The notes below the pieces were generated by a model. The model saw only the letters and a list, made by a program, of their open reading frames with translations, made no database searches and had not been told where the DNA came from. Shown here piece by piece: positions 11,850 through 33,025 of a stretch of 42,803 bases of DNA; the stretch's first letter is position 1, and every line of letters starts with the position of its first letter. The translations under genes and the position numbers were made by a program. Origin of the DNA: Chloroflexota bacterium (GTDB taxonomy: Bacteria > Chloroflexota > UBA6077 > JACCZL01); the NCBI GenBank assembly GCA_020850535.1, contig JADZEM010000032.1, positions 1 through 42,803 on the forward strand, in the 5' to 3' direction.

Positions 11850-12237
11850 CGATTACCCCTGCCTGTGCGCTCGTCCAAGAGAAGTATCGCGCCGTCGTGC
11901 TCCGCCGATGGGCACGTGGCTGCAACCAATCTGCGTGAGGATAGGACGCCTGATCTGGATGTCACGACCGTCACCTGCACAGCATATCGAATGAACGCAG
12001 CGATCCAAGATGATGTGACGTTGTGATCCCGTTTCAGGCATTTTGCACGGCGGCCTCCGCATGCCGGCGTGGACGCGAGACACTGCAGTGCATCATCCTG
12101 AACGTGCAAATGTCCAGACCGGCGGCAGAGAGTACGACGCTCAGGCCGTGTGACCTGGGCACCGGCGGCCACGCTCATGAAGCCGGGCGGCAGAGCCCAC
12201 GGAGCCACGCTCGACTCGCGGAATTACGGTGCGCCGT
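11850..12237. other. Intergenic region upstream of the epimerase operon
   Basis: A gap of 388 bp between the stop of the S8 protease gene and the start of the epimerase gene, both on the minus strand. It holds a plausible promoter (11981-12008). GC is lower than in the neighbouring sugar genes. I see no RNA gene or strong terminator hairpin. Confidence 0.5.
11981..12008 (-). promoter_or_regulatory. Possible sigma-70-type promoter for the epimerase operon
   Basis: Read on the minus strand, TTGGAT (12008-12003) is followed after 16 nt by TATGCT (11986-11981). That gives a leader of about 125 nt before the epimerase start. The match is imperfect and rests on sequence alone. Confidence 0.3.
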
Positions 12238-15015
12238 CTAGCGAACAGCGGACGTGAGCGCGCTAGAGAAGCCCGTCGCGGAATTCGTCCACGACGCTCC
12301 GTTGTCTGTTGAGGAGAAGATCGTCGTTCCTGAGGCGGCCCACCAATTCGTAGGTTGCGCCGATTCGTAGCGCATACCAAGCGTTGGGCTAAACCCCCCG
12401 GTCACCAGGGTATAGGTCGATCCTCCGTCCTCAGATATGTAGTGACCAGTTGTGCTCCATGGTGGGGGGATGTAGAACAGGGCATGATTCTTTGTGTTGC
12501 TCGCGAAATTGCCTGCTCCGAGTCCAAATGGACCAGCCTGAGCGCCAGTAGCGGATGTCTGACTGGTCCAGTCGAATCGATACAGGTTTCCCGAGCTGTA
12601 GCCCATATACACCCGCGTGGGATCGGGACTAGCCACCAGGCTGTGCCCAGCGCTGGACCACCCACCGTATCCGCCCCACCAACTAGCTCCCTCGTCATCC
12701 GTGTAGTGGAGCATCTGATCGCAGTTGGATCCATTCGAGTTAGGAGTGGCGTGGGCACGTCGGAACCAGACCCGGTTGCTGCCTGGAGCCGTCGGCAAGA
12801 CGAACGCATGCAGACCCGTCGTGATTCCTCGGTGCAGGCAATGATTCGGGACCGTATACGTTCCGAGCGCCGTTTGGGTCCAAGTTCCGCCTCCCTGAGA
12901 CTTCCAGAGGGCACCCGCAGCGGCTGCATACCGAGTGTCCGCATCGGGCCGAATTTTCACGTCGTTTGTGGCCAATGGTGAGTCCGCAATCTGAGTCCAG
13001 GTCACGCCGCTGTCGGTCGAGCGATACTCTTTCCTGGTTCCGGGCGAACCATTCGTCCTACCAATGATGTACATCAGATGTGGCATATGCGACGGCGCGA
13101 GCACGACATCAATCTTGGTGAGGTCGTTGCCAGCATTTGCATGGATCCAGTTCGACGCTCCGCCAGCCCCACCACGAGCCATCAGTCCACTACCACTTGT
13201 ACCGATGAACACCACGCGACTCAAGCTTAAGGGGGGCAAGCCCAGTAGCCTAAATCGGCCGTTTCCGACACGATACTCCTCAGCAGTTACAACAGGCACA
13301 GCATTGGTCTTCACCACTGCAGCGATTTGAGCTCCTGTTAGTCCAGGTTGAGACTGCAGAAGGAGAACTGCACCTGCAGCCACGATCGGCGCGGATGCGG
13401 AGGTACCTATAAACGGCCCGCCAACTACGTCAAGGCCAGTCAACGTTACAATGTCTGGCTTGCTGCGACCGTCAGTAGTCGGTCCAGCGCTACTATATGC
13501 CGCAAGTTGATCAGACCCGCCCTTCAGAAGACCGCCGACCACGACGACGCCAGATCCTTTAGCGTCAGCAGGGTGCAGGAAGCTACCGGCGGCTGTCCCA
13601 AATCCGGAGGCGAAAGAATTCACTGAGACGCCCATCGCCACGAGATCAAGCGTCACGTTGTCAGGTCCGCTGATCCATTTCACACTTATCGTCGTGTTCG
13701 GACTCGCATTGTTCACGAGTTCAATAGGGCGCAGGAGCGACGGACCACCAACGCAGAACTGGCTATTCTCCGACTTTCGCGAAAACAGGCCCGTGCCAAC
13801 ATGTAGATCCAGGTTCGTGCAAGGATCCCCCCATTCCGCTACACCGTCGGTTCCTGTCGTGCGCCATCTCAGTGCTATGCTCCCGTTAGGAGAAGCCCAC
13901 TGCGATGTGCTCAACGTCAAGCTGTTGCCCTGCGGCTGACCAAGCGCATCGGTAAAGTTCAGCCAGCCATCTAGATCTGTATCTGCCCACGACCCTGTCC
14001 AGAAGCGTGTTCCAGAGTTCCCAATAGAATGGGTAACAAGGATTCCGAGACTAGAAGCGTAGTCAAAAGCAAATACCGAACCGCCGGATACACCATCGCC
14101 GTTGCCTGGTCCTTCGAGAGACGCATAAGGGAATCCCATGGACATATTTATGATCTTCACACCCTTGGTGTGGAAACAATCAATCGCCGGAACGAGTTGA
14201 GGCGTTATATCTGCTGCTGCAACAAAGATCTCAACATCCGGCGCAATACCCTTGATAACCTCAGCTACCATTGACCCGTGGTCTGTCATTGTCGTATTGG
14301 ACATCTGGTGACAAGAGTGATTGCCATCAATCGGAGTCAGGCCACGGGCTGCGTTGGAGTAGTCTTCAAAGCCACCATCGAGAATGCCGATCTTTACACC
14401 GGTTCCCTTATATCCATTATCCGACCACGCCTTCGAAAGAATATCGGTAATCACATCATTGTCGATATTCGAAGGCTCCCCGCGATAAGCTCGCTCAATG
14501 TAGCGAACTGCTGAGCTCTGGCTCAGGCTTTCAAGCAGCCTGATGGGCACTTCGGCACCGATCACATCTCTGGTGCGCCCGAGCGCAGGTATGGAGAGAC
14601 CCTTCAGGAGACGGTCAACCTGGTCCCCTTGTGTGGGATTTGCTTGAATATTCACAAGGACTGGTTCGTTAAAATGCAAACTGTACTGTCGACCTTGTTC
14701 GGCGGAAATTTCTCCCTTTTCTGCCCGAGTGATCTGTACGAGATTATTCTCCATTTTTGGGTGTACGTTCCGTTGCGGAACCGCCGCACTCGGAGTGCCT
14801 GGCTTGATCGGTTCGCCATTTGCTGGAGGTGTACCGGCAGAGGCTGGTGATGGGGCAGGCCGAGCCGTCTGGGGTGAAGGACTCGCGACAGGAGACGCTT
14901 GGCGAAGGGTTTGTGGAGAACTTTGGGCAACGGCGGGAGCGGCCTGCGCCGTGAGTGCAAGCAACATGGCCAGGCACAAGACTCTGTTCAGCGTCGGTAT
15001 CCAGGTGCGATGCAC
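12238..15015 (-). CDS. Secreted S8 (subtilisin-like) serine protease with Asp-box repeat C-terminus
   Basis: About 925 residues. The GTG at 15015 is chosen because AGGAGG lies 7 nt upstream and a signal peptide follows (WIPTLNRVLCLAMLLALTAQ, then AAPAVAQ). Next are a Pro/Ala/Ser-rich linker, a prodomain-like part (about 115-180), and a split subtilase domain with Asp213 (VKIGILDGG), His246 (TDHGSMVAEV), oxyanion Asn333 (SIGNSG) and Ser539 (FIGTSASAPIVAAG); an insert of about 150 residues precedes the Ser block. The last 280 residues carry Asp-box motifs of sialidase/BNR type (STDSGVTWTQI, TDDEGASWWGG, SEDGGSTY, STDNGASWTN), a beta-propeller fold. Exported protease; target unknown. GC is clearly lower than in neighbours (31 of 60 bases at 14041-14100), which suggests acquisition. 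Its ribosome binding site overlaps the stop codon of the upstream small gene. Confidence 0.92.
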   Translation of the reverse strand: MHRTWIPTLNRVLCLAMLLALTAQAAPAVAQSSPQTLRQASPVASPSPQTARPAPSPASAGTPPANGEPIKPGTPSAAVPQRNVHPKMENNLVQITRAEKGEISAEQGRQYSLHFNEPVLVNIQANPTQGDQVDRLLKGLSIPALGRTRDVIGAEVPIRLLESLSQSSAVRYIERAYRGEPSNIDNDVITDILSKAWSDNGYKGTGVKIGILDGGFEDYSNAARGLTPIDGNHSCHQMSNTTMTDHGSMVAEVIKGIAPDVEIFVAAADITPQLVPAIDCFHTKGVKIINMSMGFPYASLEGPGNGDGVSGGSVFAFDYASSLGILVTHSIGNSGTRFWTGSWADTDLDGWLNFTDALGQPQGNSLTLSTSQWASPNGSIALRWRTTGTDGVAEWGDPCTNLDLHVGTGLFSRKSENSQFCVGGPSLLRPIELVNNASPNTTISVKWISGPDNVTLDLVAMGVSVNSFASGFGTAAGSFLHPADAKGSGVVVVGGLLKGGSDQLAAYSSAGPTTDGRSKPDIVTLTGLDVVGGPFIGTSASAPIVAAGAVLLLQSQPGLTGAQIAAVVKTNAVPVVTAEEYRVGNGRFRLLGLPPLSLSRVVFIGTSGSGLMARGGAGGASNWIHANAGNDLTKIDVVLAPSHMPHLMYIIGRTNGSPGTRKEYRSTDSGVTWTQIADSPLATNDVKIRPDADTRYAAAAGALWKSQGGGTWTQTALGTYTVPNHCLHRGITTGLHAFVLPTAPGSNRVWFRRAHATPNSNGSNCDQMLHYTDDEGASWWGGYGGWSSAGHSLVASPDPTRVYMGYSSGNLYRFDWTSQTSATGAQAGPFGLGAGNFASNTKNHALFYIPPPWSTTGHYISEDGGSTYTLVTGGFSPTLGMRYESAQPTNWWAASGTTIFSSTDNGASWTNSATGFSSALTSAVR

Positions 15016-15026
15016 GAGGCGGCCTC

Positions 15027-15431
15027 CTACGGAAATATCGCTGAGGGAAGGTGAATTACGTGGACGACTTGCGGCAGGTTGGAGAGGGCGCACGCCCGGT
15101 TCAATGGGACACGAAGCACAAGTTCGCTGTCACGTCTTGAAAGTTGCTCGGCGTCGAACTTAGCTGGAATCATTGCATCTGCTGGGGCCACATAGACCAT
15201 CAACGACACCCTTTGTTGAGGATCTCTTTTCAAGCGCGACTCGTAGTACACTTCGTTTGGAAGCCGAGGGCAGTCGCGAAGATGGTCCTGGCGCGTCGGC
15301 TCGCGCCACATGCCAGATAAGTGGGGGAGCGGGATTGTGGAGAGCAACGCATAGGATGCGAGCACAAGCACTGGTAAACACCCAGCCACCAATGCGGTCG
15401 TAGTCCTCCTGCTGATCCAGTCTCGCCTCAT
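15027..15431 (-). CDS. Small membrane-anchored protein, prodomain-like, coupled to the S8 protease
   Basis: A 134-residue protein; ATG 15431 has AAGAGG 5 nt upstream. One hydrophobic segment (about 11-31) anchors or exports it. The stop TAG is part of the ribosome binding site of the protease gene (TAGGAGG), so translation of the two is coupled. The last 60 residues, from VSLMVYVAPADAM to VPLNRACALSNLPQVVHVI, can be aligned by eye with the prodomain part of the protease (VLVNIQANPTQ ... VPIRLLESLSQSSAVRYI): both have a beta-strand, then VP[IL], a helix, and V-x-[HY]-[VI]. I infer a stand-alone I9-like inhibitor or folding helper; no family was recognised outright. Confidence 0.7.
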   Translation of the reverse strand: MRRDWISRRTTTALVAGCLPVLVLASYALLSTIPLPHLSGMWREPTRQDHLRDCPRLPNEVYYESRLKRDPQQRVSLMVYVAPADAMIPAKFDAEQLSRRDSELVLRVPLNRACALSNLPQVVHVIHLPSAIFP

Positions 15432-21481: not shown

Positions 21482-22576
21482 CTACCCGACGCGGTACTTC
21501 TCCACCGCCTTCGGGTTCAGCTCCAGGCCCAGGCCCGGCTTGTCCGGGTACGGCGTCCACATGCCGTTCTTCGGCTCGGGGAACTCCGTGTAGAAGATCT
21601 TGTCCGTCTCCTCGGAGACGCCCAGGTACTCGACTACGCGCAGGTTCGGGGTGGCGCAGGCCAGGTGCAGGTGCACCAGCTGCACGGCGTGCGGCGCGAC
21701 CGGCAGGTTGAACGCGTGCGCCAGGTGCGCTACTTTCATCCACTCGGTGATGCCGCCCACCCGGCCCACGTCCGGCTGCACGATGTCCGCGCCGCCCTGC
21801 GCGATCAGCTCTTTGAACCCGTACTTCGTGTACTCGTGCTCGCCGGTGGCCACCGGGATGTCGATGGCCTTCGCGATGGCCGCCAGCCCCTGGATGTCGT
21901 CCGCGAGGACCGGCTCCTCGAACCAGCGGACGTTGTAGTCCTGGAAGCGGCGGCCCATCGCGATGGCCTGCTTCGCGTAGTAGCCGTTGTTGGCGTCCAC
22001 GAAGATCTCGACGTCGTCGCCGACAGCCTTGCGGACCGCTGCCAGCCGCTTCAGATCCTGCGCCTCGTCCTTGCCGAAGTCGATGGCCACCTTCATCTTG
22101 ACGCGTGGGATGCCCCGCTCGACGTACCCCGTCTGCTCCTTGACCAGCTCGGCCTCGCTGAAGCTCGTCCAGCCGCCCGAGCCGTAGATCGGCACCGTGT
22201 CCGTGTACGGGCCAAGCAGCCGGTAGAGCGGCACGCCGAACGCCTTCGCCTTCAAGTCCCAGAGGGCGATGTCGAGGCTGGAGATCGCGCAGAACGCCAC
22301 GCCCTTCCGACCGTAGCCACGGACCTTCCAGAACATATCGTCCCAGAGCTTCTCGTGGCAGAGCGGATCCTGGCCCACCAGCACCGACTTGAGCTGGCGC
22401 TCGATGACGCCCTTCGACTCGCCAATCCCGACGCCGAACCCTTCAATCCCCTCGTCGGTCTTGATGTGCACGAAGAGTCCGCCGCGCCCCTTGCCGGCCG
22501 TCCGGATCGTCGAGTCCTTGATGCCCGGCAGGTCGGGGATCAGCAGCTGCGTCGTGGTGACATCGGTAATCCGCAT
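21482..22576 (-). CDS. Mandelate racemase/muconate lactonizing enzyme family protein
   Basis: A 364-residue enolase-superfamily enzyme. It removes a proton next to a carboxylate, with Mg2+. Residues match the mandelate racemase subgroup almost number for number: Lys160/Lys162 (RVKMKVAID), metal ligands Asp194 (FVDANNGY), Glu220 (RWFEEPV) and Glu246 (ATGEHEY), and the Asp269-His296 dyad (QPDVGRVGG, APHAVQ). This residue set is that of sugar-acid dehydratases and racemases; the substrate is not evident. ATG 22576 has GGGAGG 4 nt upstream. The opposite-facing hydroxyacid dehydrogenase may act in the same catabolic route. Confidence 0.9.
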   Translation of the reverse strand: MRITDVTTTQLLIPDLPGIKDSTIRTAGKGRGGLFVHIKTDEGIEGFGVGIGESKGVIERQLKSVLVGQDPLCHEKLWDDMFWKVRGYGRKGVAFCAISSLDIALWDLKAKAFGVPLYRLLGPYTDTVPIYGSGGWTSFSEAELVKEQTGYVERGIPRVKMKVAIDFGKDEAQDLKRLAAVRKAVGDDVEIFVDANNGYYAKQAIAMGRRFQDYNVRWFEEPVLADDIQGLAAIAKAIDIPVATGEHEYTKYGFKELIAQGGADIVQPDVGRVGGITEWMKVAHLAHAFNLPVAPHAVQLVHLHLACATPNLRVVEYLGVSEETDKIFYTEFPEPKNGMWTPYPDKPGLGLELNPKAVEKYRVG

Positions 22577-23120
22577 GAAGCCTCCCACTGTGCGCGTCGT
22601 CGGGTGGTGCAGGGTAGGCCGGCCGTCGACTTCGCGGCGGCCACACCACCTGACGACGCCGTCAGGCTGCCGAGCGGGCGTCCTGGCCGGCCCGGCGCGG
22701 CAGTATAGACCGGACACGCCGGGCTGATGGTTCACCCGCACCCGTTCGCATCCCAACAGCCCGAGTGTTGCTGGCAGAACAGCGCGCCCGCTGCCCGGTC
22801 TGCTCGAATATAGAGGGGGCCGGTATCTGGCCGGAGGGGTGATGGCGTTCGGCTATCATGACCAGAGGGGCGCGCGTGAGGCGTTGGGTTACCAGCCGGA
22901 TGGCGCCGTGCTCGCGGAGGCGGGCGGCGAGCCGGCACGCGCGGCGCTGCCTGTGGCAGGCTCTGCGCGGCCACACCCACGGTCCCCGGCCCTGGAGGAT
23001 CGATCATCAGCTGGATGGCGCGGTGTCCCCAACGAGCGGAGATCGCATCATGAAGGTGGCGCTGCCGGGAGTGGGGCCGGCCGGCATCAGGCCCGGCCGC
23101 TGCATGGTTCGGGACGCCGT
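22577..23120. other. Divergent intergenic region upstream of the Ser/Thr kinase
   Basis: A gap of 544 bp between the enolase-family gene and the kinase gene. The kinase frame is open back to a GTG ATG pair at 22839-22844 with GGAGGG just upstream, so an N-terminal extension of 93 residues cannot be excluded; its composition (Gly/Arg/His/Pro-rich, no fold) argues against it. I see no repeat or RNA gene. Confidence 0.45.
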
Positions 23121-26081
23121 ATGAGCGGGACGCCCCTGCCGGAGTCGTTCGGGCGGAACGGTGCGTACAAGGTCGTCGGGATCATCGGGCGCGGCGGCTT
23201 CGCGACCGTCTACAAGGCGTACCATGCCGCGCTGGATCGGCACGTCGCCATCAAGGTGTTGCGGCCAGAGATGGTCGAGCCGGAAGGCGCGCGGAATCGA
23301 TTCCAGATCGAGGCGCGCGCCTCGGCCCGGCTGGCCGGCCACCCCAACATCGTCACCGTCTACGACTACGGCGAGGAGGACGGCTCGGCCTACCTTGTCC
23401 TCCAGTTCGTCGACGGCCTCACGCTCGACAAACGGCTCGCCAAACCGATCACCGCCCGGGAGATCGACAAGATCGTCAGCGGCGTGGCGTCGGCGCTCGA
23501 CTTCGCGCACCGCAACAGCCTGATCCACCGCGACATCAAGCCGTCGAACGTGCTGCTGGAGCAGGACGGCACCGCCATCCTCTCCGACTTCGGCATCGCC
23601 AAACTGCTCGACGCCACCGCCTCGATGACCAACACGCTGCTCGGCACGCCCGACTACATGTCGCCCGAGCAGATCACCGGCTCGCCGCTCGACGCCCGCA
23701 GCGACGTCTACGCCCTCGGCGTGATGGTCTACCGGATCTTCGCCGGCAAGACGCCGTTCCAGGGCGCGCCGATGGCGATCCTCCATCAGCACGTCCATGC
23801 GCCCGTCCCGGAGCTGCCCCCCAACCCGCTGACGGGACGTCCCGCGCCGGCCGCCGTCGAGGCCGTCATCCGCCGCGCGCTGGCGAAGCACCCGGAGGAC
23901 CGGCAGCACACGGCCGGGCAGCTTGCCGCCGAGCTGCGGCAGGCACTCCGCCCGCTGATCCTGGCCGAGCAGGCCCAGGACGCCCTGCGCGCCAGCGACA
24001 TGAGCCGCGCCGAGGGGCTGGCCGCCGAGCTGGTCCGGGACCACCCCAGCTACCCGGAAGGCTCGCAGATCCAGCAGGAGATCGCGCGGCAGCGGGCGCG
24101 GCTGGCCCAGCGCTCGCGGGTGCAGGGGCTGATCGACGCCGAGCAGTGGCAGACGGCCGCCGAGGAGATCGACCGCTTCGGACTGCGCGGCGACCGGGAC
24201 ACCGGCGTCCAGGGGCTGATCCGGCAGGCGGACGCCGGGCTGGCCGCCGAGCGCGCTCGTCAGGAGGCCGCGCGCCGGACCGAGCAGGAGCGCCAGCGCC
24301 GGGAAGCCGAGGCCCGCGAAGCCCAGCGCCGCGAGCAAGAGGCGCAGCGCCGCGAGCAGGAGGCCCGGCAGGCCGCCTGGCGCGAGCAGCAGGCGCGCGA
24401 AGCGGCCCAGCGCGAGGCCGAGGCGCGGGAGGCTGCCCGCCGCGAGCAGGAGGCCCGCGAGCAAGCTCGGCGCGAGTTTGAGGCCCGCGAACAGGCCCGC
24501 CGTGACGCCGAAGCCCGCGAGCAAGCCCGTCGAGAGGCCGAGGCCCAGGAACAGGCCCGCCGCGACGCCGAGGCGCGCGAGCAGGCCCGGCGGGAGTTCG
24601 AGGCCCGCGAACTGGCCCGACGACAGCAGGAGGCCCGCGAGGCCGAGGAGCGCCGACAGCAGCAAGAGCAGGCCGAGCGCGCCCGCCGCGAGCAACAGGC
24701 CCAGGCTGAGCGCGAGCGCCGCGAACGCGAGCAGCAGGATGCCCGTGAGCGCGCCGAGCGCGAGCGGGCCCGCCTCGCGCATCTGGAGGAGCTGGAGCGG
24801 CAGGTCGATCGGGAATCTGGCCTCTCCTCCGAGGAGATCGAGGCGCGGGCCGGCGAGCGCACCCGCCAGCGGCAGGCGAAGCTCGGGCCGGCCGCCGCGG
24901 CCGCCGCGGCCCCGGGATCGGCCGGCGCGGGGGGGCGCTCGCCGGTCCTGCCCGTGCTCGTCGGGCTGGTGGCCGTCGCCCTGCTGGTCGCTGGCGGCAT
25001 CTTCTTCGTGCCGGGGGTGCTGCCGGCCCTGATGGGCCGCTCCGCGACGGCGACCCCGTCGGCGTCCCAGCCGACGGCCACGCCGGCCGCCGCGAAGCCG
25101 ACGGCCGGGCCGACCACGGCCCCCGCCGCGAAGCCCACTGAGCCGGCGGCGAAGCCGACCGACCCAGCCGCGAAGCCGACGCAGCCGGCGGCGAAGCCGA
25201 CCGAACCAGCCGCGAAGCCGACCGAACCAGCCGCGAAGCCGACGACCCCGCCGACCGTCGCGGAGCAGAAGCCCGTCGCGCCGACGACCGCCCCGGCCAA
25301 GCCGGAGCCACCGACCCCGGTCCCGCCGACGCCCACCGTGGCCCTGCCCGGGCGGATCACCGCCCAGGATGGCGCCGAGATGGCGCTGATCGCGGCCGGC
25401 GGCTTCCAGATGGGCCAGGATGGCGATGCATCCACGGGACCGCGCTTCACGCTGGCCTTGCCGGCCTTCTACATCGACGTGACCGAGGTCACCAACGCCC
25501 GCTTCCAGCAGTACGTGCAGGAGACCGGCAGCAAGCCCGAGGGCGACTGGCGGCGGTTCTTCGACGCCGCCAACTTCGACGCAAAGTTCTACGATGTCGA
25601 GCGGAACGACCATCCCGTCGTCAACGTCACCTGGAAGGACGCCGACAGCTACTGCCGCTGGGCTGGCAAACGTCTCCCGTTCGAGGCCGAGTGGGAGAAG
25701 GCGGCGCGCGGCGTGGACGGCCGGCTCTGGCCCTGGGGCAACGAGCCGCACCCCGAGTTCGCTAACATCGAGAACCAGACCGAGGGTGAGCCGGATACCC
25801 GGCGCGTCGGCAGTTTTCCACGCGGCGCCAGCCCGTATGGCATCCTCGATATGACCGGGAACGCCCGTGAGTGGACAGACAGCTCACTCCAGCCGTACCC
25901 CCTGACCCAACCCACCGGCAGCGCGGCCGGGGCCGGCTCCCGCGTCACGCGGGGCGGCTCCTGGCTGAGCCTGCCGAATTCGATCGAACTGACCCGTCGA
26001 CTGGCCGAGCCGGTGACCATCGCAGCCAAGGATCTCGGATTCCGCTGTGCGGTCTCGGCAGACCAGGCCAGAGGGAGGTGA
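23121..26081 (+). CDS. Transmembrane Ser/Thr protein kinase with helical stalk and outer SUMF1-like domain
   Basis: About 986 residues from ATG 23121. Hanks-type kinase domain at about 15-280: glycine loop GRGGFATVYKA, Lys45, HRDIKPSN (Asp138), DFG (156-158), GTPDYMSPEQ; all catalytic residues are present. Residues about 375-565 are a Glu/Arg/Gln/Ala stretch with seven tandem 10-residue units (431-500, such as REFEAREQAR), suited to a long single helix. A membrane segment follows (about 607-637), then a Pro/Thr linker with EPAAKPT repeats, then a SUMF1/FGE-sulfatase-type domain (about 745-980). That domain lacks the active-site Cys pair of formylglycine-generating enzymes (RGGSWLSLPNSIELTRR), so it probably binds a ligand. 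Inferred role: a receptor kinase with an outer sensor. Two envelope genes follow. Confidence 0.9.
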   Translation: MSGTPLPESFGRNGAYKVVGIIGRGGFATVYKAYHAALDRHVAIKVLRPEMVEPEGARNRFQIEARASARLAGHPNIVTVYDYGEEDGSAYLVLQFVDGLTLDKRLAKPITAREIDKIVSGVASALDFAHRNSLIHRDIKPSNVLLEQDGTAILSDFGIAKLLDATASMTNTLLGTPDYMSPEQITGSPLDARSDVYALGVMVYRIFAGKTPFQGAPMAILHQHVHAPVPELPPNPLTGRPAPAAVEAVIRRALAKHPEDRQHTAGQLAAELRQALRPLILAEQAQDALRASDMSRAEGLAAELVRDHPSYPEGSQIQQEIARQRARLAQRSRVQGLIDAEQWQTAAEEIDRFGLRGDRDTGVQGLIRQADAGLAAERARQEAARRTEQERQRREAEAREAQRREQEAQRREQEARQAAWREQQAREAAQREAEAREAARREQEAREQARREFEAREQARRDAEAREQARREAEAQEQARRDAEAREQARREFEARELARRQQEAREAEERRQQQEQAERARREQQAQAERERREREQQDARERAERERARLAHLEELERQVDRESGLSSEEIEARAGERTRQRQAKLGPAAAAAAAPGSAGAGGRSPVLPVLVGLVAVALLVAGGIFFVPGVLPALMGRSATATPSASQPTATPAAAKPTAGPTTAPAAKPTEPAAKPTDPAAKPTQPAAKPTEPAAKPTEPAAKPTTPPTVAEQKPVAPTTAPAKPEPPTPVPPTPTVALPGRITAQDGAEMALIAAGGFQMGQDGDASTGPRFTLALPAFYIDVTEVTNARFQQYVQETGSKPEGDWRRFFDAANFDAKFYDVERNDHPVVNVTWKDADSYCRWAGKRLPFEAEWEKAARGVDGRLWPWGNEPHPEFANIENQTEGEPDTRRVGSFPRGASPYGILDMTGNAREWTDSSLQPYPLTQPTGSAAGAGSRVTRGGSWLSLPNSIELTRRLAEPVTIAAKDLGFRCAVSADQARGR

Positions 26082-26218
26082 CGTCACCGAGCATAGCCCG
26101 CCCCGTCTACCCCGACCCCAGGAAGCACACTGCGCCCATCGCATTGGGCACCAGGATCGCAGCGGCGGTGGACGGCGACGTCCAGCCCGTCGGCGGACAC
26201 TGATAAGAGAGGGAGACC

Positions 26219-26800
26219 GTGGCAAAGCGACTTCTGCTTTCGCTCGCAGCCCTGGCGTTCGGCTTCATGCTGGTGGCTCCAGCGCCGGCCTTCGCACGCA
26301 TGCACTTCACCACGACGAACGAGCGTCTGAGCGCCCTGGCGCAGCGGGCGCAGTCCAGCGTGAGCCTGACCAACCCGGCCGAGATCGCCACCCAGCTGAA
26401 CGAGATCACCACCCAGGCCCAGGCCGCCAAGGCCGCCGCCGACGAGGCTGCCCAGCGGCCCGCCAGCGGTGCTGAGGACAAGTCTGTCCTGGCGAAGGTC
26501 GGCACGGACATGGATACCGTCGTGGCGACGGCCAACCGTGCCAAGACCCTCACCGGCACCGATCAGCAGAATGCGCTGAAGGACATCCAGACCAAGTCCC
26601 AGGAGTCCCTCAAGGCGGTTCAGGATCGGATCGCGGCGCAGCTGGCGGCCCCGCCGGCCCAGGCGAGCCCGTCCGTCCTGCCGGCGTCGGGCTACGCCGA
26701 TGCCTCCGGCCCGGCTCCGAGCCTGCTGCTGCTCGGCTTCGGCTTCCTCGTCGTCGGCGTGAGCGTCCTCGGCGTCGCGCGGCTGCGCCGGACGGCGTAG
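26219..26800 (+). CDS. Secreted helical protein with LPASG-type C-terminal anchor
   Basis: A 193-residue protein with GTG start (GAGGGAG upstream). A signal peptide (1-27, ending PAPAFA) is followed by an Ala/Gln/Thr-rich, probably helical, region (35-145). The C-terminus has LPASG (154-158), a hydrophobic segment (about 168-187) and RLRR, the layout of a sortase sorting signal, although Ser replaces the usual Thr. If that reading is wrong it is simply a C-terminally membrane-anchored protein. No sortase gene is in the window. It lies 137 bp after the kinase gene and 19 bp before the beta-propeller gene, so the three are probably one operon. Function unknown. Confidence 0.82.
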   Translation: MAKRLLLSLAALAFGFMLVAPAPAFARMHFTTTNERLSALAQRAQSSVSLTNPAEIATQLNEITTQAQAAKAAADEAAQRPASGAEDKSVLAKVGTDMDTVVATANRAKTLTGTDQQNALKDIQTKSQESLKAVQDRIAAQLAAPPAQASPSVLPASGYADASGPAPSLLLLGFGFLVVGVSVLGVARLRRTA

Positions 26801-26819
26801 GCTGGCCGACGAGCACACC

Positions 26820-27935
26820 ATGCGACGCGCACGGATCTCCCGGCCCACGCAGTCCCCGCCGCGCTGGCGGGGGCCGCTGGCCGGGCGGTCCGGCCTGCGG
26901 GCCATCCGCCTGACGGTCCTGACGGTGCTCGCCGCGCTGCTCTGCGGTGTGTCCGGCAGTCCGTCTGCCTACGGACAGGAGCCGGCCGCCATCATCGAGC
27001 CGTGGACCTACGGCCCGATCGGCACCATCGCCGCGCCCCACGGGGCCGGCGTGCTCCTGACCAACGTCGCCACCGGTGGAGAGCAAGAGCTGGCTGTTCT
27101 GCCGCCAGTCGGCGTCTCCGGCCACGCCGTGTGGTCGCCGGACCGCGCCAGTCTGGCGATCAGCCGCTTCGGACGGCTGCCCGGCGAGCGCGTCGGCGGC
27201 TCAGACATCCTGGTGCTGCCGGCCCAGGGCGGCGAAGCCTTGCCGATCGCCCAGCATGACAAGGACGGCGCGTTGCTCGGCGGGCCAGCGTGGCTCCCAG
27301 ACGGGACCGGCCTCTACTACGATCACCTGCCGCCGTCCGGTGGCGCGACGAACACCCAGGTGATGTTCGCGCCCATCGACGCCAGCCAGGCGACCCGGAC
27401 GATTGCCGTTGGCGGCTGGCCGACCGTCTCACCCGATGGCCGCTTCCTGGCCTACGTGCGGCCGTCGCCCACCTCTGGCTTCCTGAACGAGCTGGTGGTG
27501 ATCGACGCCACGGGCGTCATGTCCCGCACGATGATCCCTGCCGATCACCTCGTCCAGATCTCGTCGCCGCGCTTCTCGCCCTCCGGGACGGAGATCGCGT
27601 TCATCGGCAGCACCTCGGTCGGCGAAGCCATGTCGCCGCCCGGCCCGGCCGATCTCACCGCCCTGTTCGGCAAGATCGGCCCCCGGCCATCCGAGTCTGT
27701 GCGCGGCCCGCTGGCCCACGGCCCGCCCGGCGACGTCTGGGTGATGAACCTCTTCGGCAGCGATGCCACCCGCCTGACCTCCTTCGACGAGGACGAGCCG
27801 ACGCTGGCCTGGTCCCCTGACGGCTTCTGGCTGGCGATGATGGGCGGCGGCGGCCTGTACGTGCTCCCGCGCGACCTCTCGCAAGCGCCGCGTCGGGTTG
27901 GGAAAGGCGGCTTCGGGGGCATCGACTGGCGGTAG
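26820..27935 (+). CDS. Exported TolB-like/PD40 beta-propeller protein
   Basis: A 371-residue protein with a basic start and a signal peptide ending at about residue 52 (LTVLTVLAALLCGVSGSPSA, then YGQ). The mature part repeats the WD40-like PD40 pattern: HAVWSPDRASLAISRF, PAWLPDGTGLYYD, PTVSPDGRFLAYVRP, SPRFSPSGTEIAFIGS and LAWSPDGFWLAMMGG, five to six blades. Such propellers outside the cytoplasm bind proteins or peptidoglycan-linked partners. No catalytic motif is seen. It begins 19 bp after the LPASG gene, and may work with it and the stalked kinase. Confidence 0.85.
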   Translation: MRRARISRPTQSPPRWRGPLAGRSGLRAIRLTVLTVLAALLCGVSGSPSAYGQEPAAIIEPWTYGPIGTIAAPHGAGVLLTNVATGGEQELAVLPPVGVSGHAVWSPDRASLAISRFGRLPGERVGGSDILVLPAQGGEALPIAQHDKDGALLGGPAWLPDGTGLYYDHLPPSGGATNTQVMFAPIDASQATRTIAVGGWPTVSPDGRFLAYVRPSPTSGFLNELVVIDATGVMSRTMIPADHLVQISSPRFSPSGTEIAFIGSTSVGEAMSPPGPADLTALFGKIGPRPSESVRGPLAHGPPGDVWVMNLFGSDATRLTSFDEDEPTLAWSPDGFWLAMMGGGGLYVLPRDLSQAPRRVGKGGFGGIDWR

Positions 27936-27988
27936 GCCGCCGTGGTGGGCTGACGGCTGTGGCCCCACAGTCTCCTGCACGGGCCGGC

Positions 27989-28876
27989 TCAGATGTCGAG
28001 CAGCGACCGGGCGTGCTCGCCGACCATCCGCGTGACCTCGCCCGCGCTGATGCCGTTCTCCAGCATCCCGGCGATGTACATCTCCAGCCCTTCGGCTGGC
28101 AGCGGGCTTGTCGGCTGGCCGAAGTCCGTGGCCATGATCGTGCTGCCGATGCCGACCTCGCGGATGCGGGCGGCGAGTTCTGGGACTGTCAGCGTGGCGT
28201 ACTGCGGCTGGGTGACGTTGAAAGTCCGCTCGAAGTAGATGCCCCGCTCGGAGAGCTTCTTCTGCAGCTCGACGGGCATCGAGATCGCTGGCAGATCCGG
28301 GTGGGTCGAGACGATCCTCTTCAGCCCCATCTCGATGGCCCGCGCCGAGAGCCGGTCGACCTCGTCGGGCGTCAGGTGGCCCGTGGCCAGCACCATGCCA
28401 CGGTCGCGGATGATCTCCAGCACCAGCTCGGTGTCGGTGGTCGGCGAGCCATCGTCGTCGAAGACGCGGACGCCCGCATGCCGGCCCGGCAGGTGCATGG
28501 CGGCCGGGTGGGCGCGCACGCCGGGGGCCGACTCGTGCGCCAACTGGTTCTCCGAGTGGGCCGTCGGCATCCAGACGACCTTCGCGCCGCCGCGCCCGGC
28601 CGCCTCGACGGCCCAGGGGTTGATGCCGCCCTGCGGCTGGTTCAGCACGATGGAGCCGATCACCGCGATGCCGGGCGCCTGCATCGAGACCAGCCTCGCG
28701 CGGAGGGCCGTCGTGAAGAAGTGGTTCTTGAGCACCAGCCCGGCCATGCCGCGCTCACGGGCCTGCCGAACCAGCTCGTAGTCGTCCAGCTTGCGCTCGA
28801 CGAGGTCCGGCGAGCTGTGTACGTGTGTGTCCACCGCGCCTACAAGCAGCGCGCGCGCCTCTGCCCTGTCAGCCAT
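27989..28876 (-). CDS. DUF6282 family metal-dependent hydrolase (amidohydrolase-like)
   Basis: A 295-residue TIM-barrel-type protein. The metal-binding motif DTHVHSSPD (Asp16, His18, His20) opens the barrel; later candidates are VLKNHFF, ATGHLTPDEV, VSTHPDLPAI and MATDFGQP, in the order expected of the amidohydrolase/PHP-like superfamily. I recall this pattern from proteins annotated as DUF6282. The substrate is unknown. ATG 28876 is preceded by GGGAGGG. It is convergent with the beta-propeller gene and stands alone on its strand. Confidence 0.82.
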   Translation of the reverse strand: MADRAEARALLVGAVDTHVHSSPDLVERKLDDYELVRQARERGMAGLVLKNHFFTTALRARLVSMQAPGIAVIGSIVLNQPQGGINPWAVEAAGRGGAKVVWMPTAHSENQLAHESAPGVRAHPAAMHLPGRHAGVRVFDDDGSPTTDTELVLEIIRDRGMVLATGHLTPDEVDRLSARAIEMGLKRIVSTHPDLPAISMPVELQKKLSERGIYFERTFNVTQPQYATLTVPELAARIREVGIGSTIMATDFGQPTSPLPAEGLEMYIAGMLENGISAGEVTRMVGEHARSLLDI

Positions 28877-28960
28877 CCGAGTCCCTCCCAGGTGCAGGGG
28901 ATGGTCGCACGCGCCGGGCGCGCTGTCCAGGGAGCGTGCAGTCAGCGGCCAGAATCAGGG

Positions 28961-29059
28961 CGATTGCATGTTGAGCGCGTCGTTGCAGCGTGGTCGGGGC
29001 TTTCAAGCCCCGACCGCTCGCTCGACGGCGTTTCGGGAACACCAGTGAACATGCAATCG
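28961..29059. repeat. Palindromic intergenic element, family B
   Basis: A 99-bp element with perfect 12-bp outer arms (CGATTGCATGTT at 28961-28972, AACATGCAATCG at 29048-29059) and an inner perfect 10-bp hairpin (GGTCGGGGCT at 28992-29001, AGCCCCGACC at 29006-29015). It lies upstream of the glycosyltransferase gene. It has the same two-level plan as family A but different sequence. Confidence 0.7.
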
Positions 29060-29097
29060 TTCTACGGTCAGGGTGCGGGCAGCCGGTACAATGCCGC

Positions 29098-30225
29098 GTG
29101 CCGATCTCCCCATCTGCCGCAGCCTCCCTCCCGGCTGTCGTGGTCTACACCAGCAGCCACGGGTTCGGGCACGCCGTCCGCTGCGCCGGTCTGTGCCGGG
29201 CGCTGCTGGCGCTCCGCCCCGATGTCCAGGTGGTGGTGCGGACGATGGCCCCGGCCTGGATCTTTCCGCCGGGCGTCGTGGTGGAGTCGTGCGCCATCGA
29301 CGTCGGCGTACTGCAGCGCGACAGCCTGACCATCGACGCGCAGGCCACACTGGAGCGGTACGCTGACTGGGTTGCCCACGAGCCAGCCGCCATCGAGGCC
29401 GAGGCCGCCCACCTTCGACGGATCGGGGCGCGCGCGGTGGTGGCCGATGTGCCATCGGCGGCGTTCGCCATCGCGGCGCGGGCCGGCGTGCCGGGCATCG
29501 CACTGGCCAACTTCTCCTGGGACTGGATCTACGAGCCGTTCGTGGAGGACGCGCCCGGGCATGCCCACCTGATCGAGCACATTCGGGCCCAGGAGGCGCT
29601 GGCGACCGTGCTGCTGCGCCTGCCGTACCACGCCGGCCTGGACGCCTTCCCGACGGTTGAGGATGTGCCGCTGCTGGCCCGTCAGGCCATGGCCGGCCGC
29701 CAGGAGACGCGCCGACGCCACGGCCTGCCGCTCGACGCGCCGCTGGTGCTCTTCAGCTTCGGCGGGCACGCCAGCACCGACCTGGACCTGGACGCGCTGG
29801 CCGCGCTGCACGAGTACGCCTTCGTCGCGACGTGCGCCACGCTGTCATCTGACAGACTGGCCGAGCGGCGCGGTCAGAATCTCTTCCTGCTGCCGCCGCT
29901 GGACGATCGCTACGTCGATCTGCTGGCCGCGTGCGACGTGGTCGTCACGAAGCCGGGCTACGGGATCGTGGCGGACCTGATCGCCAACCGGGTGCCGGCC
30001 CTGTACGCCTCGCGGAGCGGCTTCCGCGAAGAGCCGGTGCTGGTGCGCGCGCTGGAGACCGAGGCGCGCGCCGTGCCGCTCGAGCGCGCGGCGCTGGACG
30101 CTCTCGCGCTGCGGCCGGCCCTGGATCGGCTGGCCGTCCTCGACCGTCCCTGGACGGACCGCCCCCTCAATGGAGCGGAGGTTGCCGCGCGGCGGGTGCT
30201 GGCGCTGGCCGGCCTCCAACCCTGA
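29098..30225 (+). CDS. GT-B fold glycosyltransferase (MurG/UGT-like)
   Basis: About 375 residues, soluble. The N-terminal domain starts VVVYTSSHGFGHAVRCAGL, the glycine-rich loop typical of MurG-like and L-arabinokinase N-terminal domains, then VVVRTMAPAWIF. The C-terminal domain has LVLFSFGGHAS, LFLLPPLDDRYVDLLAACD and VVTKPGYGIVADLIANRVP, the nucleotide-sugar binding loops of GT-B enzymes. It should transfer a sugar from an NDP donor; acceptor unknown. The GTG at 29098 is preferred because the in-frame start at 28990 lies inside a palindromic repeat element; no good ribosome binding site is seen for either. Confidence 0.8.
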   Translation: MPISPSAAASLPAVVVYTSSHGFGHAVRCAGLCRALLALRPDVQVVVRTMAPAWIFPPGVVVESCAIDVGVLQRDSLTIDAQATLERYADWVAHEPAAIEAEAAHLRRIGARAVVADVPSAAFAIAARAGVPGIALANFSWDWIYEPFVEDAPGHAHLIEHIRAQEALATVLLRLPYHAGLDAFPTVEDVPLLARQAMAGRQETRRRHGLPLDAPLVLFSFGGHASTDLDLDALAALHEYAFVATCATLSSDRLAERRGQNLFLLPPLDDRYVDLLAACDVVVTKPGYGIVADLIANRVPALYASRSGFREEPVLVRALETEARAVPLERAALDALALRPALDRLAVLDRPWTDRPLNGAEVAARRVLALAGLQP

Positions 30226-30352
30226 CCTGAAGTCGGCGAGTCGGTGACCGGCTGGCCGATGGCGTGGTACGGGGGCCTGTCCCGCGCCGGTCCGGTGTGG
30301 AGGGTGGCGGGAGATAAGCCCCCGCGCCGCAGGGCGATGTCTTGAATCGGTC

Positions 30353-33025
30353 TTACGCGGCGTCCGTTTTCGTGGTCGACGTGTCTTCGCCGTCGAGGAG
30401 GGCCGTCACCGCGTCGCTGGTCAGCGGGTGTGCGAAGAAGAACCCCTGACCCTGATGGCAGCCCAGCGCTCGGAGCCGGTGCAACTGCTCGGGCGTCTCG
30501 ATGCCCTCGCCGGTGACGGCCAGGTTCAGGCCCCGCGCAAGGTCGATCACGCTCCGCACGATCATCACGCTCTGGTCGTCGTTGCCGAGGCCGCTGATGA
30601 ACGAGCGGTCGATCTTGAGCGTATCGACGGGGAACCGCAGCAGGTAGTTCAGCGACGAGTAGCCGGTCCCGAAGTCGTCGATGGCCAGCCGGACGCCAAG
30701 CTCCTTCAACTGCCAGAGGATGCGGACGGCCTCATCACCTTCCTGGGTGACGACGCTCTCGGTGATCTCCAGCTTCAGGCAGCCAGGGTCCAGGTCCGCC
30801 TCGTGCAGCGCCCGCACGATGTCATCGGCAAGGCCCGGGTGCCGGAACTGCCGCACCGACAGGTTGACGCTGACGATCAGCGGCGGGTCCATCGGCGCGG
30901 CGCGCTGCCACGCCTTCGCCTGCCGGCACGCTTCTTCGATGACCCACTGGCCGATGGGCACGATCAGGCCGGTGGCCTCGGCAAGCGGGATGAACTGCAT
31001 CGGCGAGACGACGCCACGCTCCGGGTGGACCCAGCGCAGCAACGCCTCGACCTCGCGGATGCCGCCGCCTTCGAGCCCGAGGATCGGCTGATACATGACC
31101 CGCAGCTCGTTCCGCTTGATGGCGTGGCGCAGGTCCGCTTCGAGCTGCAGCCGGTCGAGGGCCGTCGCGCTCATGCTCTGATCGAAGACCTCGTAGCGGC
31201 CCTTGCCGCCAGACTTCGCGCCGTACATGGCGAGGTCGGCGTCGCGGAGGAGCGTCTCGGTGGTGTCCACGCCGGGCCGGCTCAGGACGATGCCGATGCT
31301 GACGCCCGGCACGAACTCGCGGCCGTCGAGCGGGATCGGCTCGCGCATCGTCTCCTGGATGCGCTCGGCCACAACGATGGCGTCTGCCTCGTTGCCCACG
31401 TCGTTCAGGAGGACGGTGAACTCGTCACCTCCAAGCCGCGCCGCCGTCTCCTGGCTGCGCAGGCAGGCCTTGAGCCGCCCGGCGATGGTGACCAGCAACG
31501 CATCGCCGGCCTTGTGCCCCAGCGAGTCGTTGACCACCTTGAAGTTGTCCAGGTCGAGGAACATGACGGTCAGGCGTTGCTGATTCCTGGCTGCGCCCTG
31601 GAGCGCGTGCTCCAGCCGATCCAGGAAGAGCGCCCTGTTCGGCAGGCCAGTCAGGCTGTCGTAGAAGGCGAGGTGCTCCAGCTCGCGCTCGGCGCGCCGC
31701 CGTTCGCCGATCTCGCGGGTCAGCAGCTCGTTGGCCTCGGACAGGTCGGCTGTGCGCTCCTGGATCCGCTGCTCCAACTGGTTCCGGGAGACGGTCGTCT
31801 CGCGCAGCCGCCGTACCATCTCGTTGAACGACTCGGCCAGCACTTCCAGCTCGCGGTCGGCGTGCAGCCCGAGCTGAATGTTGACGTGCTCCAGGTCGCC
31901 GCTGGTGATGCGGCGGGCGGCGACGGTGACCGCCGAGAGCGCACTGCTAATGCGCCGGGCCAGCACCACGCCGACGGTCGCGGAGATCGCCAGCGCCAGC
32001 GCCGCCCAGAGGAGCGCGTGGCGCAGGAAGTCGTTGGCCGCCGCCTGGAACGTCGCCACGGGCAGGGCTGCAACGTAGCTCCAGGAGGTCGTACTGAGCG
32101 GCACGGCGACGGCCCGCAGCTCGGAGGACCCGTTGCTCCAGGTGAGCGTCGTCGGATGCTGAATGCCGACGGCTGGGACCAGATCGGCCTCGCCGAGCGG
32201 GCCGGGCGCTGGATTGTTGCCCCAGCGCTTGTCGCTGGCGAGCGCGGCGCTGACGGTTGGTTGGAGGGGTACGATGGGCCGCAACAGCCAGGAGGGGTCG
32301 CTGCTGCTGCTGATGACCAGCCCGCTCTCGTCCAGCAGGATGCCCGTTGCGCCGGCTCCGACCCGTGCCTGCGCCGATTGGACGATACCCTGCACCCAAT
32401 CGAGCTTCGAGCGGGAGCGCAGGATGCCGACGACGATGCCGCGCTCGTTGGTCACCGGGAACGAGTGGAAGATGGACGGGGCGTTGGTGATGGTCGAGAT
32501 GCTGACGCCGGAGATGAACGGCCGCCCGAACATCGCCTCGGCGAAGTAGTCGCGCTGACTGACGTTCTGGCCGATATCGGTCGGGCTGCTGCTGGCGATG
32601 AAGGTGCCGTTGGCGTCGGCCAGGGCGATCGAGTCAACGTCCGGGGCGATGCTGGCGTGCCCACGCAGGATGTCGAAGATCGGCTCAAGCCGGGCCGGTC
32701 GCTGCTCGGGGGCCGTCAGGACGAAGTCCCCGATGACATGCATGCTGGCCAGGGCGCGCAACTGGTTCATGCGCTGAGCATGCCAGGCGTCGATGCCGCT
32801 GGCGACGCCTCGCGCATCGGCGGTGAGCGCCGCTTGCGCCTGCTCGTCCAGCCCACGGATGGCGCGGTAGGTGCCGAGCCAGGTGAGGGCAACGGCCAGC
32901 GTCGCGCAGAGCATGATGTTCAGCAGGCCGATGCGCGCGGCCAGCGACATGGTGGCCCGCCGAGGGCTCCCTCGCTCTGAGATTTCCGGTCCAGTCGCCG
33001 TCCCGTTCGTCGTGCCAGCCGTCAT
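30353..33025 (-). CDS. Membrane GGDEF-EAL protein with dCache and HAMP domains (c-di-GMP turnover)
   Basis: An 890-residue protein. Two membrane segments (about 31-52 and 337-357) enclose an outer dCache-type sensor (about 55-330). HAMP (about 358-412) and a coiled coil follow. The GGDEF domain (about 450-612) has an intact GGDEF at 532-536; the inhibitory I-site position has RSQE instead of RxxD. The EAL domain (about 630-875) has intact EALLRW (660-665), ITES and DDFGTGYSS. It may therefore make and degrade c-di-GMP, with the net activity set by the sensor. ATG 33025 has GAGG 5 nt upstream. It is divergent from the CDF transporter gene. Confidence 0.93.
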   Translation of the reverse strand: MTAGTTNGTATGPEISERGSPRRATMSLAARIGLLNIMLCATLAVALTWLGTYRAIRGLDEQAQAALTADARGVASGIDAWHAQRMNQLRALASMHVIGDFVLTAPEQRPARLEPIFDILRGHASIAPDVDSIALADANGTFIASSSPTDIGQNVSQRDYFAEAMFGRPFISGVSISTITNAPSIFHSFPVTNERGIVVGILRSRSKLDWVQGIVQSAQARVGAGATGILLDESGLVISSSSDPSWLLRPIVPLQPTVSAALASDKRWGNNPAPGPLGEADLVPAVGIQHPTTLTWSNGSSELRAVAVPLSTTSWSYVAALPVATFQAAANDFLRHALLWAALALAISATVGVVLARRISSALSAVTVAARRITSGDLEHVNIQLGLHADRELEVLAESFNEMVRRLRETTVSRNQLEQRIQERTADLSEANELLTREIGERRRAERELEHLAFYDSLTGLPNRALFLDRLEHALQGAARNQQRLTVMFLDLDNFKVVNDSLGHKAGDALLVTIAGRLKACLRSQETAARLGGDEFTVLLNDVGNEADAIVVAERIQETMREPIPLDGREFVPGVSIGIVLSRPGVDTTETLLRDADLAMYGAKSGGKGRYEVFDQSMSATALDRLQLEADLRHAIKRNELRVMYQPILGLEGGGIREVEALLRWVHPERGVVSPMQFIPLAEATGLIVPIGQWVIEEACRQAKAWQRAAPMDPPLIVSVNLSVRQFRHPGLADDIVRALHEADLDPGCLKLEITESVVTQEGDEAVRILWQLKELGVRLAIDDFGTGYSSLNYLLRFPVDTLKIDRSFISGLGNDDQSVMIVRSVIDLARGLNLAVTGEGIETPEQLHRLRALGCHQGQGFFFAHPLTSDAVTALLDGEDTSTTKTDAA

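Follow-up and report, generated by a model that had tools for sequence, protein, structure and literature searches.

In a 42,803-nucleotide stretch of DNA from a Chloroflexota bacterium (hereafter the window; contig JADZEM010000032.1, assembly GCA_020850535.1), we analyzed a gene whose product joins a Hanks-type Ser/Thr kinase to a formylglycine-generating enzyme (FGE)/SUMF1-fold domain by way of a long charged helix and a single membrane helix. We put at about an even chance the reading that this protein is a single-pass receptor Ser/Thr kinase with a ligand-binding, cysteine-less FGE-fold sensor outside the cell and a charged single α-helix that serves the kinase as a leash inside it. The plan of a kinase plus an outer FGE-fold domain is already known; the long charged helix is the new element. 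An earlier note, made from the DNA sequence, had described a kinase, a charged helix, a membrane segment, a Pro/Thr linker and a SUMF1-like domain in that order, and this architecture is borne out by the translation of the open reading frame (ORF), Pfam domains, composition and an AlphaFold2 (AF2) model. The full order is Hanks-type kinase, short helical segment, charged helix, hinge, membrane helix, linker and FGE/SUMF1-fold domain (Table 1). The G+C content of third codon positions is 0.85-0.98 in all six parts of the gene that were measured, which supports the reading frame.

Table 1. Features of the receptor kinase gene and its product (positions are those of the window; pLDDT, AF2 per-residue confidence; TRF, Tandem Repeats Finder)
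Feature	Residues	Position	Strand	Basis
Whole gene, 986 amino acids plus stop		23121..26081	+	Translation; ATG 23121, stop 26079-26081
Ser/Thr kinase domain	16-261	23166..23903	+	Pfam PF00069, 6.5e-51
Short helical segment, TPR-like by eye	277-362	23949..24206	+	AF2 helices 265-290, 294-307, 312-352
Long charged helix	363-565 (AF2 model)	24207..24815	+	AF2 helices 363-481 and 485-565
Charged core	384-563	24270-24809	+	Sequence composition
30-nt tandem repeats within helix, nine overlapping copies in register, 61-100% identity		24318..24671	+	Repeat search, TRF
Hinge (44 residues)	566-609	24816..24947	+	Sequence, AF2 model and pLDDT
Single membrane helix	610-629	24948..25007	+	Hydropathy, model helix
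Outer Pro/Thr/Ala/Lys linker, modelled as disordered	630-744	25008..25352	+	Model, repeats
21-nt repeats (AKPTEPA) inside outer linker		25121-25253	+	Repeat search, TRF
FGE/SUMF1-fold domain	752-977	25374..26051	+	Pfam PF03781, 9.8e-54; AF2; VIA-align
Positions of FGE catalytic Cys pair	S950 and I955	25968..25985	+	Loop alignment

The long charged helix

Residues 374-566 form the sole run of more than 40 residues in the protein that is free of Pro and Gly. Residues 384-575 are 26.6% Arg, 26.6% Glu, 21% Ala and 15% Gln; the core is 56% charged with a net charge of -1, has no Pro or Gly, and holds only eight large hydrophobic residues (VILMFYW) among 180. The many i to i+4 Glu/Arg pairs remarked on earlier are there in excess over 2000 shuffles of identical composition: 28 acid-to-base pairs were observed versus 14.4 +/- 2.9 (z = 4.8), 20 base-to-acid pairs versus 14.4 +/- 2.8, and 10 like-charge pairs versus 28.4 +/- 4.3 (z = -4.3). 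Since these counts go beyond those of composition-matched shuffles, the i,i+4 pattern is not simply an effect of composition.

A hydrophobic heptad, the pattern that would have pointed to a dimeric coiled coil, was looked for in the charged stretch. In windows covering residues 381-548, large hydrophobics fill 0 to 0.125 of the a and d positions in the best register, and no continuous heptad is present; only a short Leu cluster at 552-562 stands out. Power at the heptad period of 3.5 (hydrophobics plus Ala) was 0.5, compared with 34.6 for tropomyosin, and was not significant by shuffling (p = 0.62). Ala and hydrophobics follow a 10/3 (3.33-residue) period over 24270-24809 (power 8.2, reached by 0 of 1000 shuffles), a consequence of the 10-residue repeat within the helix; this period falls outside the usual coiled-coil periods. 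The stretch thus combines the sequence marks of a charged single α-helix (richness in Glu and Arg, opposite charges at i,i+4 and no hydrophobic heptad), and the preference of the earlier note for a single helix over a coiled coil is supported computationally. A home-made, uncalibrated single-helix score, scaled as a fraction of the ideal (AEEERRR)n, came to 0.229 versus 0.167 +/- 0.019 in shuffles, one in 1000 of which reached it. This value is modest, so the absence of a heptad counts for more in the single-helix case than does any extreme network of charges.

Several observations weigh against a monomeric helix. Pairs at i,i+3 show no enrichment (17 versus 14.5 and 15 versus 14.3 in shuffles). 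On the home-made scale the tropomyosin sequence used as reference has a mean of 0.07 and a best window of 0.23; the two proteins are therefore not cleanly separated. With Ala included among the hydrophobics, 0.375-0.625 of the a and d positions are filled in the best register, and the 3.33-residue period of Ala might allow an unusual packing. The full-length AF2 model is weak (predicted template modelling score, pTM, 0.43), and residues 484-491 are modelled with low confidence. Myosin single helices are about 76% charged (PMC5378345, in the part available), well above the core analyzed here.

Some of these points bear on a different reading, in which the stretch pairs two kinases by forming a dimeric or trimeric coiled coil. 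PknB-type kinases are activated by dimers; the Leu cluster, though small, could pair, and in the windows 535-562 and 549-576 hydrophobics fill 0.375-0.5 of the a and d positions of the best register. Predictors can also mistake charged single helices for coiled coils and vice versa, according to the accessible part of PMC5302728, and hence sequence alone cannot settle the type of helix. We nevertheless consider a coiled coil quite unlikely, given the near absence of large hydrophobics from a and d over 381-548, the lack of power at period 3.5 and a 10-residue repeat that is no multiple of the heptad. A search of solved structures for relatives of the helix returned two matches only, both at chance level (E 0.88 and 0.9).

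At 0.15 nm per residue, 180-203 residues give a predicted rod of 27-30 nm. The idea that this rod keeps kinase and membrane tens of nanometres apart is plausible as to length but not as a fixed stand-off: the hinge beside the membrane would permit the rod to tilt or lie flat, so that 27-30 nm is a reach. The charged helix had also been taken to run directly into the membrane helix, which is refuted by the hinge, where a short modelled helix (570-587) is followed by a run rich in Gly, Ala, Ser and Pro. With such a hinge, a rigid coupling of rod and membrane helix is improbable, and loose coupling disfavours a simple push-rod and favours a leash. On the leash reading, the outer domain most likely binds a surface ligand and the disordered Pro/Thr/Lys linker would hold it off the membrane. 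The PknB-like kinase, placed inside the cell by the usual receptor-kinase plan, would hang on the hinge and the rod. Acting as a semi-stiff leash, the helix could bring substrates far from the membrane within range of the kinase. Six sortase matches in the genome fit a walled cell surface.

The closest working analogue of the proposed leash is INCENP, whose charged single helix of roughly 200 residues (213 amino acids, about 32 nm at rest) extends the reach of Aurora B (PMC4571873, available part). That system differs in being eukaryotic, in having the kinase on a separate protein and in being anchored to chromatin rather than a membrane. Because single helices come unfolded under low force and act as springs of constant force (PMC4183817, as far as its text was available), a force-responsive role is conceivable here. 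Only tentatively do we propose the fuller view, in which a monomeric charged helix of ~30 nm is a long-reach, possibly force-responsive leash and the protein, sensing through a Cys-less FGE fold at the surface, is a counterpart of INCENP-Aurora B that arose independently. The available part of one source (PMC5378345) puts myosin single helices at under about 80 residues on average and about 200 at the longest, reports single helices in many prokaryotic proteins and lists M4K4 and INCENP as known examples; combinations of helix and kinase thus exist in eukaryotes. Among the titles listed by our literature search, with most subscription papers beyond its reach, none dealt with a bacterial receptor kinase built on a single charged helix. 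Should the stretch prove a true single helix, the protein would plainly exemplify a bacterial receptor kinase in which a ruler or leash separates membrane from catalytic domain, and it would serve well to test whether the substrates of a membrane kinase are set by reach alone.

INCENP also illustrates another possibility, that the helix serves as a rod to which a partner, either a protein or a nucleic acid, binds, the kinase being its cargo: its single helix binds microtubules (PMC4571873) and that of CAF-1 binds DNA (PMC10335832), each as stated in the accessible text. We regard such a rod as improbable here, since a core net charge of -1 gives no evident affinity for DNA and no partner is known.

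Tandem repeats and the origin of the charged stretch

The 30-nt repeats lie in register and could mean that the charged stretch is a spacer grown by tandem duplication, with no role beyond sparing the kinase harm. How far the units have diverged bears on this. Adjacent 10-codon units from residue 443 were compared over 70 codon pairs: first, second and third codon positions differ 13, 15 and 42 times, and of the changed codons 26 are synonymous and 22 nonsynonymous. This third-position excess suggests constraint on the protein sequence of the helix and argues against a mere spacer. The repeats of the outer linker show a milder pattern (10, 5 and 21 over 42). The i,i+4 spacing likewise beats composition-matched shuffles, an argument weaker than it looks because repeat duplication itself propagates favourable spacing.

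Comparison with other kinases would fit a recent origin. The 74 distinct kinases compared were drawn from this genome and from lists of best matches; they are no random sample, and six, including the row of the protein under study, are cut at the 3' end. In this set it alone has a 50-residue Pro/Gly-poor span that is more than 50% charged (0.62; next 0.44). The stretch 23883-24276, which covers the kinase end and the following segment, has no match in the other 28 of 29 genomes of the class. As neither a comparable stretch in the 73 other kinases nor a relative of the preceding segment was found, the charged stretch may be young. No orthologue was found in this set of 29 class genomes, one of which represents the window's genus. 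This counts against a conserved leash, and nothing shows that the helix has been kept over time; close relatives are barely sampled in such a set. On balance we judge an idle spacer unlikely, though it is the alternative to the leash that we take most seriously.

The kinase, the outer domain and their relatives

The kinase domain matches Pfam Pkinase at 173.7 bits (cut-off 31.7) and has all the Hanks-type residues: G23, G25, K45, E64, D138, N143 and D156. K45, N143 and D156 are invariant across a 23-row kinase alignment. The NCBIfam equivalog of the PASTA kinase PknB/Stk1 (NF033483) stays below its cut-off (292.7 versus 450 bits, over residues 14-297 only), and Pfam finds no PASTA repeats in the protein. 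When the kinase and the following segment (385 amino acids) were searched together, 323 of 400 phylum genomes gave matches, as kinases. Among the matches listed, a few alignments extend to residues 320-347; L141 has the highest identity to the kinase (53%), and L145, at 42%, aligns furthest into the following segment (residue 347). In the loci L141/L170 and L145/L171 (same order), kinases precede TPR-like repeats recognized by eye.

The outer domain matches Pfam FGE-sulfatase, formerly DUF323, at 183.1 bits (cut-off 23.3). Modelled alone from a 78-row FGE alignment, it gave an AF2 pLDDT of 90.9 and a pTM of 0.90. Comparison with FGE by VIA-align confirmed the fold: Z was 28.9 to Streptomyces FGE (2q17; root-mean-square deviation 2.7 over 230 residues), 28.5 to human FGE, 27.9 to Treponema TvpA (2y3c) and 27.0 to the human paralogue SUMF2/pFGE. 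Where human FGE has GGSYMCHRSYC as its catalytic loop, this domain has GGSWLSLPNSI, and its loop is three residues shorter. The Cys pair of the GGSxxCxxxxC loop is replaced by S950 and I955, in agreement with the earlier note's claim that the domain lacks the pair needed for formylglycine formation; the only cysteines of the protein, 845 and 976, are not at the active-site position. Unlike FGE, the domain is also fused to a receptor kinase.

The FGE alignment comprises this domain and 77 of 103 FGE-like stretches found; one row is a wrongly cut non-FGE stretch (L045:637-1464), one is without the catalytic loop (L051:2008-2796) and one has an odd end (L021). The Cys pair was counted by motif, since FGEs with the pair carry the loop that is longer by three residues. 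It occurs in 8 of the 78 rows, all of them stand-alone ORFs, two of which (L008 and L002, motif xLCxxxYC) are in the window's own genome. It is absent from all 20 rows that come from kinase-fused loci, the wrongly cut stretch being one of them. Loss of the Cys pair is hence usual for kinase-fused FGE folds here and not peculiar to this protein, which adds to the evidence for Cys-less FGE folds as outer parts of receptor kinases.

Ligand binding outside the cell is the likeliest role of the outer domain. In the part available, PMC10907252 discusses FGE domains on conflict-system proteins as putative sensors that are diversified, and cites the paper on TvpA. The fold matches also include PvdO, EgtB, OvsA, SenA and CalU17; the fold thus serves proteins of other pathways, and the domain could be another enzyme, as are its PvdO/EgtB relatives, with the kinase reporting its chemistry. 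EgtB-type relatives use an additional DinB-like domain, of which Pfam finds none here, and an enzyme of this kind seems very improbable to us. Matches in a viral fold library, to phage FGE-like and tail-fibre proteins, were uninformative. Treponema TvpA is the target of a diversity-generating retroelement; for the gene analyzed here such a status was rejected. The window's contig (C32) has no reverse-transcriptase match (the five lie on C90, C136 and C74), and the direct repeats of at least 40 nt at 22000-30500 are the two tandem arrays only, none of them template-like.

The order of kinase, membrane segment and SUMF1-like domain had been called unusual. It is not, because such fusions recur in the phylum sample and kinase-DUF323 proteins are already published. 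An FGE-domain match is present in 191 of the 400 phylum genomes. Among 40 regions chosen for long open frames, 17 full-length ORFs contain both kinase and FGE domains (four, L078, L079, L080 and L100, are near-copies), and in 14 of the 17 a membrane segment lies between the two. These proteins, e.g. L070, L072, L098 and L105, have one or more FGE-like domains and, in the rows examined, no FGE Cys pair. They differ in the gap from kinase to membrane or FGE domain, which is 31-97 residues in 16 of 17 (L072 having 97 residues at 0.39 charged) and 396 residues, weakly charged at 0.16, in L097, versus 337 residues at 0.43 charged here. A separate contig scan with the FGE domain gave six loci, none with kinase and FGE domain in one ORF. 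In a 73-row kinase tree the kinase belongs to an open set of 49 rows, five of them FGE-fused, and it is neither joined to these five nor shut off from them; the tree does not resolve its place, and its bootstrap was not yet stable. The 13 FGE-fused rows need three changes on the tree, and a single origin of the fusion among them may be possible.

Published kinase-DUF323 proteins likewise have a Hanks-type kinase to which an FGE-fold domain is added, mostly at the C terminus. They were described in 2005 from Chlamydiae (PMC1262709), a group listed there among those without membrane kinases, and in 2007 from cyanobacteria, among which Trichodesmium erythraeum has the highest prevalence of the domain (PMC2176072). 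The available portions of both papers describe neither a membrane helix nor a long charged helix in these proteins.

The genome (7.65 Mb in 227 contigs) has five FGE-fold and 14 kinase matches. In 12 of the other 13 kinase stretches no comparable helix was seen by eye. In ten sister kinases Pfam finds PASTA in two, WD40 in one and TPR in one, the rest having a weak second domain or none; these varied partners point to the usual receptor-kinase plan with exchangeable parts.

Neighbouring genes

Just downstream on the same strand, 26219-26800 encodes a 193-residue protein with a signal-peptide-like start, whose tail (LPASG, a hydrophobic stretch, then RLRRTA) resembles a sortase sorting signal by eye. 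Next on this strand is a PD40/TolB-like β-propeller protein (26820-27935). On the opposite strand, 30353-33025 encodes a dCache-HAMP-GGDEF-EAL protein, likely a membrane c-di-GMP enzyme. A subtilase-family protein (12238-15093, minus strand) lies in a stretch of lower G+C and was perhaps acquired; G+C at 12001-15000 is 0.57, versus 0.69 before and 0.61 after.

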